A stretch of DNA of 26,797 nucleotides from a virus. Below are positions 691 to 13,689 of this stretch, one piece after another. Under the pieces are notes generated by a model, which saw nothing but the letters and a program-made list of their open reading frames with translations, did not search any database and was not told where the DNA came from. The DNA lies in IMG/VR virus record IMGVR_UViG_3300040806_000498, positions 1 to 26,797 of that record. One strand, written 5' to 3'. Numbering within the stretch: the stretch's first letter is position 1; the number at the start of each line of letters is the position of its first letter. A program made the translations under genes and the position numbers.

Positions 691-1092
691 TTAGACGGCA
701 GTTAATACAATATAGTCGTTTGTCGAATCGTTTTCTAGTGCCCAAGTATATCTGTTACCTGAAAAGTCAGTTGCAACACGCTTTGTGATTTTTGCAATGT
801 TTACTTCAGTACCTGAGTTTGAACCAATATAACCCCAAAGTCTCATTTCGCCATCTGCACTAGGTGCACCATCTTTTAGTACCGCAGTTGTTGTGCTTGT
901 TGAATCTTTTAAGTTTGTAGTATCTAGATTAGCTTCTTGTGCAACAACAAAAGTTTTTGCACCGCGTTGCTTAACAATACCGCCATCTGTTCTTAATGAC
1001 GTATCGTAAAATTCTATTCTCACACCGGTGTTCGATGTTGCTTCACCGATTACATTAACACCAAGTATATCTTTCTTTAGTGGACGTCCCAT
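691..1092 (-). CDS. Small MGRPL-type phage structural protein
   Basis: 133 residues beginning MGRPLKKDILG. The frame extends upstream to an ATG at 1173, but I chose ATG 1092. It has AAAGGAGA 6 bases upstream, and the likely late promoter at 1177-1184 would start the transcript at about 1171, past the upstream ATG. The C-terminus (TDFSGNRYTWALENDSTNDYIVLTAV) is rich in beta-prone and aromatic residues. Proteins with an MGRPL start occur among virion structural proteins of marine T4-like phages; this is a recollection of the family, not a search result. No catalytic motif is visible. It forms a two-gene unit with the fibre-like gene downstream. Likely role: minor capsid, neck or decoration protein. 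Confidence 0.65.
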   Translation of the reverse strand: MGRPLKKDILGVNVIGEATSNTGVRIEFYDTSLRTDGGIVKQRGAKTFVVAQEANLDTTNLKDSTSTTTAVLKDGAPSADGEMRLWGYIGSNSGTEVNIAKITKRVATDFSGNRYTWALENDSTNDYIVLTAV

Positions 1093-1124
1093 TGTTTTCT
1101 CCTTTGTTGACGTTCTAGGTCTAC

Positions 1125-1158
1125 GCGGTGGGTACCGCATAAGTCCTCTTTCGAGAGG
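1125..1158 (-). other. Two-hairpin 5' leader of the MGRPL transcript
   Basis: The roughly 79-base leader between the presumed start of late transcription (about 1171) and ATG 1092 holds two perfect hairpins. One, at 1145-1158, is a 5-bp stem with a CGAA loop on the minus strand. The other, at 1125-1138, is a GCGGT/ACCGC stem with a 4-base loop. The ribosome site lies beyond both. The leader may set mRNA stability or translation; this is inferred from structure only. Confidence 0.4.
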
Positions 1159-1176
1159 CTCTCCTCTTGACATATG

Positions 1177-11436: not shown

Positions 11437-12750
11437 TTATTGAGGCTGAGGCGCATCCTCAGCAGGAGGTGTAGTATCGCTAGGCGGTGCTGCTTCAGGT
11501 GCTTCTTCTTCAAGGCCCATTGATTGTCTAAGCAATGCTGCTCGCTGTTCAGGAGAAATATACGGTACTAATAGTTGTTCCTTGCCTGGAGGAAACAACA
11601 GTCCATGGAAAACTAATTTTGCCCATTCGCTACTGGTAGAATATTCTCCTTCAGGTGCTTCGGCAGCATCACTTCTTTCCCAACCAAGTGCTCTTCTAAA
11701 CGCTCCTGATCCGTACTGCCCATCAAGTGCAATATCTAATGCTGTAGCTGCCATTGTAACGCCTGCTCCAACTGCGCCTAAAAAGACGCCCATTATATTT
11801 CCATGAAACCACTCGGCTAAACTGCGTTGTACAGTAGGACTAGAAATAATCAATCCAGCAATCAACCAAGCAGATTCTGTAACTAATAATGACAGCAATG
11901 ACGGAAAAGTTCCAACAACAGTTGCTGCCGCTGCGCCTTGAGCTGCTCGAACAGTCCATTTAATCCAACGCAATGCCCTGTTAAACAAACTAGCATTACG
12001 CATTATTTGTAGTAATACAAACATGAGTTGAGCACTTATTTGTCCAACAACTATGTTTCTTAACTCCATATTTTCTTCAAGAACATTAGGGTCGTCTTCG
12101 GCTTCGATCTCAAGATCGTTGATAATTTCTATTCCACTAACTATCAGCGAATAGGCCACGCCTGTGGCACCTAGAATTCTAACAGCTCCTCTAGCAAATG
12201 GATTTTGTAACCATGCTTGAAGTGTTGGACCTACTCTTGTTATGTTACCCAGTGCTTCAAATGATGTAGCACTAGCTTGTGCTGCTCTACGAGCTAATCC
12301 TTGAGTTAATCTACTAATATCACGTATAGTAGCACCTTGAGTTCTTGCAGCGGCACGTCTTAGTTTTGTAGCATTGGTTCTGTCAGCTTCAGGTAAATTA
12401 TCTAAAAAGTTTCTTGCAGCAGATAATGCCGAGTCACTTCTTCGAGTATTGTCACCAACAAATTCTATTATTTCGTCAGTGCTGTCTAGTCCAATGCCCC
12501 ACTTACTAGCGCCTAATTCAAATAGTTCACCAGCAATAAACTGCCCTGGAGCTCTAGTTGGAGTTGGAGTTGCAGCTTCAGTCAAGGTGTGTACTGGTAA
12601 TTGAACAGAAGACAGTGCAGTTGATTTAGTTACATGTTTTTCAATAACACGATTTGTCGATTCGTCAACAACTAACCATCTACTTCCATCAGAAGATGTT
12701 TTGTCATACTTCAAGGTACGTTTGTTTATTAATACTTCACTTAATTTCAT
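11437..12750 (-). CDS. Phage protein with several hydrophobic segments, function unknown
   Basis: 437 residues. After a soluble N-terminal third (MKLSEVLINKRTLKYD, then an Arg-rich helical region at 100-165) there are membrane-like stretches at about 188-211, 232-250, 272-303 and 319-342, with Ala/Gly-rich content. The C-terminus (about 410-437) is Pro/Ala/Glu-rich and probably disordered. No signal peptide and no enzyme motif is visible. A late-type box lies 26 bases upstream, so it is probably made late. It may be an internal virion protein that inserts in the host membrane during DNA entry, or a membrane protein acting at lysis or superinfection exclusion; the sequence cannot decide. ATG 12750 has only a weak ribosome site (GGAA). 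Confidence 0.7.
   Translation of the reverse strand: MKLSEVLINKRTLKYDKTSSDGSRWLVVDESTNRVIEKHVTKSTALSSVQLPVHTLTEAATPTPTRAPGQFIAGELFELGASKWGIGLDSTDEIIEFVGDNTRRSDSALSAARNFLDNLPEADRTNATKLRRAAARTQGATIRDISRLTQGLARRAAQASATSFEALGNITRVGPTLQAWLQNPFARGAVRILGATGVAYSLIVSGIEIINDLEIEAEDDPNVLEENMELRNIVVGQISAQLMFVLLQIMRNASLFNRALRWIKWTVRAAQGAAAATVVGTFPSLLSLLVTESAWLIAGLIISSPTVQRSLAEWFHGNIMGVFLGAVGAGVTMAATALDIALDGQYGSGAFRRALGWERSDAAEAPEGEYSTSSEWAKLVFHGLLFPPGKEQLLVPYISPEQRAALLRQSMGLEEEAPEAAPPSDTTPPAEDAPQPQ
11445..11463. repeat. Hairpin at the convergent gene junction
   Basis: GCTGAGG and CCTCAGC form a perfect 7-bp stem with a 5-base loop just inside the 3' end of the minus-strand gene. The only sequence between two converging late units is this hairpin, but neither strand has a T tract. 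It may block transcription from both sides or protect 3' ends. Confidence 0.4.
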
Positions 12751-12775
12751 CTAGAATTGTTCCAACTGTATAATG

Positions 12776-12783
12776 TATTTATT
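12776..12783 (-). promoter_or_regulatory. Late-type promoter (AATAAATA)
   Basis: AATAAATACATT on the minus strand, one mismatch from the late consensus, is 26 bases before ATG 12750 of the hydrophobic-segment protein. Confidence 0.55.
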
Positions 12784-12791
12784 TAATTATT

Positions 12792-12810
12792 AGTTGAACT
12801 ACGTTCAACT
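12792..12810. repeat. Perfect inverted repeat, 8-bp stem
   Basis: AGTTGAAC, a 3-base loop and GTTCAACT. It lies immediately upstream of the late-type box for the 11437-12750 gene. Confidence 0.7.
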
Positions 12811-12864
12811 GTGTTATCGCTATCGCTCAACACGAACTATTTGTTTGTGATTATAGTATTAATT

Positions 12865-12890
12865 AAGGCATATGCAAAGCATATGCTTTT
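12865..12890 (+). terminator. Possible terminator-like hairpin with palindromic arms
   Basis: GCATATGC, AAA, GCATATGC (12868-12886) followed by TTTT on the plus strand. Each arm is itself palindromic, so the site can also form alternative dimeric structures. On the minus strand the following tract is TTAATTAAT, a poor terminator. No plus-strand gene lies just upstream, so the role is unclear. Confidence 0.4.
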
Positions 12891-12917
12891 AGTATTATTC
12901 AGATTGTGAAGTCATAA

Positions 12918-12937
12918 TTCGCCCGTTGCCGGGCGAA
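12918..12937 (-). other. GC-rich stem with GNRA tetraloop on the minus strand
   Basis: TTCGCCCG, loop GCAA, CGGGCGAA on the minus strand is a perfect 8-bp stem closed by a GNRA loop; the plus strand gives loop TTGC instead. GNRA loops are common tertiary-contact elements in structured RNAs, which favours a minus-strand RNA. Confidence 0.6.
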
Positions 12938-12990
12938 CATGGTTTAGCGCATTATTCGAGTCGCTTCAGCCATCTTGTTAAAAGAGATTC

Positions 12991-13046
12991 TAATGTTATC
13001 TCAACGTTACATTAAACTAATTAATGTTACCTTGACTTAACATTAA
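12991..13046. repeat. Iterated TAATGTTA inverted repeats
   Basis: A perfect 9-bp inverted repeat TTAATGTTA/TAACATTAA with an 8-base spacer (13021-13046) follows a second stem TAATGT/ACATTA (12991-13014). The octamer TAATGTTA appears twice in direct orientation, and its inverse TAACATTA once exactly plus once as the variant TTACATTA. Confidence 0.65.
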
Positions 13047-13080
13047 GTGGAGGCGGTTGACCTGTATCCCCCTACTCTAG

Positions 13081-13230
13081 CTTCGTCGTATCAACGGAAG
13101 GCAGTTATTCCCTAACAAGCGAAAACACTTACCATGTGGTTGCTTTTTCTCAGAGCCACTATCTTTTAAAGCCTGCGTATGCTTCTGCACGGGGACTCTC
13201 CACACCACCGGCTACGAGCATTACCTCGGC
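13081..13230 (-). ncRNA. Candidate structured RNA block downstream of the GIY-YIG gene
   Basis: Minus-strand RNA from here can form CTTC/GAAG with an internal CGT/ACG (13081-13100), AAGTG-TTTT-CGCTT (13117-13130), GTGG/CCAC (13136-13159) and CGAG/CTCG (13215-13228). Individually these are short; their density and the higher GC content are what suggest a folded RNA. I could not match a known family and see no dedicated promoter, so it may be the 3' tail of the gp46-GIY-YIG message. Confidence 0.3.
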
Positions 13231-13257
13231 TGATTCTTGGAGTTTTATCAGTGTCCC

Positions 13258-13689
13258 TTATATTGCCTTTTGATTTTTTAGATTTTCTATTAGTGTTTTA
13301 CTACCGCCTACACGAACGTTAATGATACCGTTATAATATTCATCTGTCTCTAGGACTTTACGTTCGAATTGTTCTCGTGCCTCAAGGTAACTCATTTCGG
13401 CTCTACTTTTACAAAAGTAAAGTATTTCGCGAGTAAATTTGTCAGTGCCTAATGCTGTTACGTCTTCATTTAATCTATCTGACGATCCCCAATAGTCTCG
13501 CCAATCTGATTCTTTGTAGCCTCTGCGTTTATTCTTTTTGCCTTTGAGTGGTGGCTTGGTAGTTTTAAATTTTGCTAATTTTTTGCCTACGTATTTTTTA
13601 TTATTTGTTAAATTTGTAATTAGATATACAAAGCCTTCATACTCGTCTGATATTTCAGTAACAGCTTTTCCATTATACATCCAACTCAT
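13258..13689 (-). CDS. GIY-YIG family putative endonuclease
   Basis: 143 residues. The GIY half is in GFVYLITNLTNNKKYVGKK (19-37), with YVG as the YIG half. YWGSSDRL near 66-73 and a Glu in YLEAREQFE (101-109) occupy the places of the later conserved elements of the domain. GIY-YIG proteins cut DNA with a single catalytic domain; phage members include homing enzymes such as the T4 Seg and I-TevI families. This one has no recognisable DNA-binding extension and no intron around it, so it could be a free-standing homing endonuclease or a repair or degradation nuclease resident in marine T4-like phages. ATG 13689 lies 3 bases after the stop of the preceding gene, without a clear ribosome site, implying coupling. 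It is followed by the structured gene-free region. Confidence 0.8.
   Translation of the reverse strand: MSWMYNGKAVTEISDEYEGFVYLITNLTNNKKYVGKKLAKFKTTKPPLKGKKNKRRGYKESDWRDYWGSSDRLNEDVTALGTDKFTREILYFCKSRAEMSYLEAREQFERKVLETDEYYNGIINVRVGGSKTLIENLKNQKAI

Follow-up and report, generated by a model that had tools for sequence, protein, structure and literature searches.

Cryo-EM structures have been described for the GOLLD and ROOL RNAs (PMC12286853). Both RNAs are present in phages. Methylophilales phage Melnitz has a phage permuted tmRNA with a glutamine riboswitch (PMC9004378). RNAs of the CsrB/RsmZ type sequester a dimeric protein using repeated short unpaired motifs beside hairpins. Here, we investigated a 26,797-nt stretch of viral DNA (IMG/VR record IMGVR_UViG_3300040806_000498, positions 1 to 26,797), hereafter the window. 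Sequence comparison shows that one intergenic region is non-coding and conserved, with covarying helices, modular domains, and twin elements that remain identical while changing. No expression data are available, and on the present evidence this is very likely an RNA gene of ~466 nt that is non-coding, structured, and absent from Rfam. Our search of the literature found no such RNA.

Genomic context of the RNA

The RNA lies on the minus strand between the GIY-YIG gene and ORF437. RNA position p corresponds to window position 13258-p. The locus contains the following features:

17592-16768, minus strand: late sigma factor gene
16732-15701, minus strand: gp47
15704-13926, minus strand: gp46
Between gp46 and the GIY-YIG gene, minus strand: 78-aa ORF
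13258-13689, minus strand: GIY-YIG protein of the SegE type, 143 aa (Pfam PF19835, 118 bits), upstream neighbour of the RNA
13257-13268, minus strand: AGGCAATATAAG at the 5' boundary of the RNA, overlapping the GIY-YIG stop codon
12792-13257, minus strand: structured RNA of ~466 nt (P1-P19), conserved as intergenic sequence in relatives, with covariation
12776-12783, minus strand: late-promoter-like AATAAATA between the RNA and ORF437, one mismatch to TATAAATA (consensus match only)
11437-12750, minus strand: ORF437, no known family, downstream neighbour of the RNA

Beyond ORF437 is a baseplate gene on the opposite strand. Relatives also have TAAATA at the place of AATAAATA. No promoter was identified for the RNA, and no U run follows its last hairpin, P19; therefore, the 3' end given here is a guess. 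Elsewhere in the window, positions 1090-1159 (minus strand) match the Rfam freshwater-2 RNA (RF02980) at 51.9 bits against a cut-off of 49.9. It overlaps the start listed for ORF 1173-691, which may really begin further in.

An earlier note, made from sequence alone, had described 12751-13257 as free of credible genes, dense in inverted repeats, and marked by a sharp shift from AT-rich to GC-richer DNA. The absence of a gene held, as stop-free frames run to at most 65 codons (plus) or 44 codons (minus). The inverted repeats were confirmed; they include, among others, 12991-13015/13021-13045 (25 nt, 84%), 12857-12875/12879-12897 (19 nt, 79%), and the perfect 8-nt repeats 12792-12799/12803-12810 and 12918-12925/12930-12937. 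The stretch folds with z-scores of -4.0 (minus) and -5.0 (plus), and none of 100 shuffles was as good. The claim about composition held only in part, since GC content (~0.26-0.32 over 12751-12920 and 0.40-0.55 over 12921-13257) forms a gradient and not a sharp step. The extent needed correction: the RNA spans ~12792-13257 on the minus strand, and 12751-12791 is the ORF437 start region, outside the RNA. Furthermore, the most conspicuous hairpin (12991-13045) is a variable insert missing in many relatives, and the conserved part lies elsewhere.

Distribution in uncultured phages

Scanning with the GIY-YIG protein as query, we retrieved 80 viral loci. At most loci with enough sequence, a gap of ~330-560 nt follows the GIY-YIG gene, even where the sequence has diverged; in a few, this gap is longer or an additional small ORF is present. 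The nearest relatives align with the window across the entire gap. Among relatives aligning over most of its length, the noncoding DNA is 73-92% identical, whereas the ORF437 protein is mostly 23-51% identical. In remoter loci, the gaps contain variant forms of a single RNA whose domains are exchangeable.

Two pattern scans of viral contigs found the window's core variant 77 times and a second variant at a minimum of 113 loci. The GIY-YIG gene lies upstream in every first-variant match whose contig extends that far and in 105 of the 113 second-variant matches, with 7 others ending at a contig edge. The RNA starts almost directly after the GIY-YIG stop codon. The gene that follows shares its orientation at 110 of 113 testable loci and is inverted in a few relatives. 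The RNA occupies one genome position in uncultured T4-like phages, most of them marine, that number well over a hundred. Given enough contig, the sole exception to the position downstream of GIY-YIG is L189 (L189:6640-7130), where the RNA core is upstream of a terminase gene, the neighbours are different, and no GIY-YIG gene occurs within its 8.6 kb. Therefore, the RNA can do without the GIY-YIG gene. The L189 twin element is also different (shared 10-mer AUCAUCAAGU).

Some loci (L005, L022, L037, L038, L075, and L114) have extra sequence or ORFs on one side of GIY-YIG, towards either gp46 or the RNA. The RNA core also occurs in 335-kb and 153-kb contigs (L274 and L275) of a Red Sea MAG labelled Neomarinimicrobiota, one of which has the same gp46/GIY-YIG neighbourhood. 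These contigs are likely misbinned phage, so we draw no host from them.

Secondary structure and covariation

The helices of the RNA, all on the minus strand, are listed below in 5' to 3' order; pair counts come from a 35-sequence alignment of the window's variant.

13192-13257, minus strand: 5' domain (P1, P2, P3/P3a)
13257-13253/13196-13192, minus strand: P1, whose pairs change in step
13241-13238/13202-13199, minus strand: P2, with pair counts over the alignment
13233-13208, minus strand: P3/P3a, with pair counts over the alignment for P3
13079-13191, minus strand: central domain (P4, P5, P6, P7/P8, P10)
13191-13176, minus strand: P4
13173-13169/13083-13079, minus strand: P5
13159-13136, minus strand: P6, around invariant CUCUGAGAAAAAGC; 99.3% paired, 3 of 4 pairs doubly changed
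13133-13100, minus strand: P7/P8; P7 100% paired
13096-13084, minus strand: P10
13078-13075/12986-12983 (12983-13078), minus strand: P12, enclosing P11 and P13; 100% paired
13049-13072, minus strand: P11 hairpin, conserved loop with AGGUCA; 5 pairs, 100% paired
12991-13045, minus strand: P13, long AT-rich hairpin, a variable insert absent or of different length in relatives
12918-12937, minus strand: P16 hairpin UUCGCCCG-GCAA-CGGGCGAA with a GNRA loop, between the twin elements
12868-12886, minus strand: P17 hairpin GCAUAUGC/GCAUAUGC
12811-12833, minus strand: P18 hairpin with a tandem G-A opposition and a GNNA loop
12792-12810, minus strand: P19, 8-bp 3'-terminal hairpin; 8 pairs, 100% paired, 7 changed on both sides

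The counted structure has 73 pairs in 15 helices and was hand-written. Over the 35 sequences, 95.5% of its cells are paired. These sequences also served to draw the structure, which inflates the percentage; the evidence lies in the double changes. Changes on both sides occur at 29 pairs against a shuffle mean of 14.8 (0 of 500 shuffles as high), and the covariation score is 0.194, whereas shuffles give 0.081 and slid structures no more than 0.069. P1 and P12, counted outside the 73 pairs, covary strongly. P1 takes the forms TGAGC/GCTCA (11 sequences), CGAGC/GCTCG (6), CGGAC/GTCCG (5), GGGAC/GTCCC (3), and CTGAC/GTCAG (2). P12 appears as AGAG/CUCU, GGAG/CUCC, UGAG/CUCA, and AGAA/UUCU, one pair being A-T in 29, G-C in 4, and T-A in 2 sequences and another G-C in 34 and A-T in 1. 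P11 changes from G-C to A-U and from G-U to A-U. The inner pair of P18 is C-G in 18 and U-A in 17 sequences, closed by GAUA, GUAA, GUUA, GCAA, GACA, or GAAA loops.

We also applied a tree-based test of our own, corrected for all column pairs. Within the window variant only 2 pairs were significant, both complementary, because the sequences are close; P6 pair 100-121 is significant under this tree-based null. For the second variant, 19 column pairs passed a conservative null, 11 of them complementary, and most of the non-complementary pairs are neighbours of one misaligned helix.

The minus strand is likely the one transcribed, given the direction of the neighbouring genes, the GNNA loops and G-A opposition of P18, the GCAA loop of P16, and consensus folding, in which the minus-strand alignment is better than its reverse by 7-22 kcal/mol in three alignments. 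This is not proven, as these features are indirect and both strands fold well. Counts of G-U versus A-C did not separate the strands, being equally biased on both.

Twin elements

Two copies of one 7-mer stand on either side of P16:

12951-12957 (RNA 301-307), minus strand: twin element 1, GAAUAAU
12894-12900 (RNA 358-364), minus strand: twin element 2, GAAUAAU

Of 163 distinct RNAs, 157 carry the same 7-mer at both sites, and at least 13 versions of it exist, among them ACAUGAA, ACAUAAU, ACAUGAU, AGAUGAU, GAAUGAU, ACGUGAA, GCAUAAA, and ACAGGAA. That count is biased, as the search picks the best-matching pair. The alignment-based count is unbiased, and in aligned columns the twins are identical in 33 of 35 sequences of the window variant and 104 of 108 of the second. 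By parsimony, 8 and 13 identical changes (21 in total) fall on the same branches. In consensus models of the window variant the twins are largely unpaired (0.70 and 0.79), and models of the second variant disagree on their pairing. We found no consistent internal pairing partner; internal complements of GAAUAAU occur at 0.17 in its own RNAs versus 0.49 in other RNAs. By inference, the coupling would be explained most simply if both copies bound a common partner. Gene conversion between the two copies is possible but would need to stop at the 7-mers.

Proposed role and alternative explanations

In the explanation we favour, the minus-strand RNA would be read after the GIY-YIG gene and end at P19, before the ORF437 start region. 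It would act in trans as a scaffold on which the twins stand exposed next to hairpins. During infection it would bind two partners of one kind, which might be the two subunits of a protein dimer or a pair of identical nucleic-acid targets. Taken as a whole, an RNA gene plus a trans scaffold with two-site docking is the likely account. Trans action with two-site docking is our preferred mechanism; on its own we hold it tentatively, with doubt slightly outweighing belief, as it is inferred and no partner was found.

It is unlikely that the RNA is a cis-acting element, either a leader or attenuator of ORF437 or a 3' stabiliser or processing element of the gp47-gp46-GIY-YIG transcript. The co-direction of the following gene (at 110 of 113 loci that could be assessed) and the position almost directly behind the GIY-YIG stop codon speak for it. 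However, the late-promoter-like site in the window lies between P19 and ORF437, and therefore a late ORF437 message would exclude the RNA; conservation of the downstream protein is weak, a few relatives have an oppositely oriented gene after the RNA, L189 has other neighbours, and the size and number of domains are beyond the usual leader. We also doubt that the RNA is the partner or guide of the adjacent GIY-YIG nuclease. The gene is upstream of the RNA in nearly all testable loci, its catalytic domain (residues 3-123 of 143) fills most of the protein and therefore leaves little space for a DNA-binding domain, and the twin elements look guide-like. But L189 carries the RNA with no GIY-YIG gene in 8.6 kb, the related nuclease genes of Melnitz, S-SRM01, RHph_I1_18, and ACG-2014f lack a comparable gap alongside, the 7-mers show no clear enrichment within ~10 kb per locus, and the linkage could come from fixed gene order alone. 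Were this an RNA-guided nuclease, RNA and nuclease should always occur together, which is not met, given L189 and the several GIY-YIG isolates without the RNA. A bolder version, in which two matched recognition elements, re-programmed between phages, would guide some effector of the phage (conceivably the GIY-YIG nuclease) to its target, is very unlikely.

The earlier note had left a structured RNA and a replication or recombination element side by side. The RNA reading held, and the checks proposed in that note support it: relatives conserve the element at the corresponding position, base changes are compensatory, a coding signal is lacking (in most relatives the gap contains no RNA-strand ORF reaching 90 aa), and no Rfam family matches. 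A DNA element, be it a replication origin, recombination hot spot, or cruciform, found no support and is very unlikely: the region is hairpin-rich, AT-rich in its left part, and close to the gp46/gp47 recombination genes, but the covarying helices have features of RNA (G-U exchanges, GNNA loops, a tandem G-A opposition, and the long-range helices P5 and P12) on the strand of the neighbouring genes. A known RNA, such as a group I intron, tmRNA, riboswitch, GOLLD/ROOL, or self-cleaving ribozyme, is all but excluded. No Rfam family, with GOLLD, ROOL, and group I introns among the models, scored above chance in the gene-free region or seven relatives, whether at gathering or at relaxed thresholds and filters. 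ARAGORN detected neither a tRNA nor a tmRNA, in the window as in 28 relatives. Group I introns can host GIY-YIG genes, but the flanking genes here are separate reading frames and no split gene is present.

Candidate counterparts in isolates and comparison with known systems

By portal and gp46, the nearest isolates are the jumbo phages Phosso (469 kb), Atu_ph07 (490 kb), and PA5oct (287 kb), at ~49-54% identity. Pseudomonas phage PA5oct has a gap of ~663 nt (L284:7868-8530; NC_071039 76517-77179) with no CDS annotated, between gp46 and a baseplate hub gene, a position corresponding to that of the window RNA. It has a fold z-score of -11.9, opens with the same 12-mer AGGCAATATAAG, and has the collinear 9-mer TTATGACTT in common with the window; no twin elements were found in it. 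Some near-identical records call hypothetical proteins in this gap, and a 32-nt piece of it, part of a long 3' hairpin, is exactly repeated at 246786-246817. Sinorhizobium phage Phosso has an unannotated 1,014-nt gap near gp46 (L283:7411-8424; z-score -5.4). Our RNA model R1 matched neither gap, so homology to the RNA is possible, a suggestive lead that is not shown. Nor did R1 give a convincing match in seven isolate whole genomes, the best being in ACG-2014f (E = 0.03), elsewhere in that genome. R1 was built from the second variant and recovers the window itself only at E = 0.86; therefore, it is a weak test for distant relatives. A DNA similarity search against 50,697 phage records gave only short chance matches. 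Should the PA5oct gap prove to be this RNA, an established laboratory phage would be available for its study.

Like Melnitz, the window comes from a marine T4-like phage with a structured non-coding RNA and a related GIY-YIG gene. In contrast, ARAGORN detected no tmRNA in it or in 28 relatives, and Melnitz has no significant RNA-model match. The likeness to CsrB/RsmZ is one of working principle only, with no membership claimed: repeated motifs stand beside hairpins, and binding by the twins is inferred. Unlike those RNAs, the window RNA has only two copies of a motif that is not fixed, and the partner is unknown. GOLLD and ROOL resemble it as large structured non-coding RNAs linked to phages, with unknown function. 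It differs from them in having no Rfam match, making it a large RNA family new to Rfam for an abundant group of T4-like viruses that are uncultured and have jumbo phages as their closest isolates, and in having identical twin elements that change in step. Binding partners are a long-standing gap for large phage RNAs, and these co-evolving elements provide a concrete handle on what such RNAs bind.
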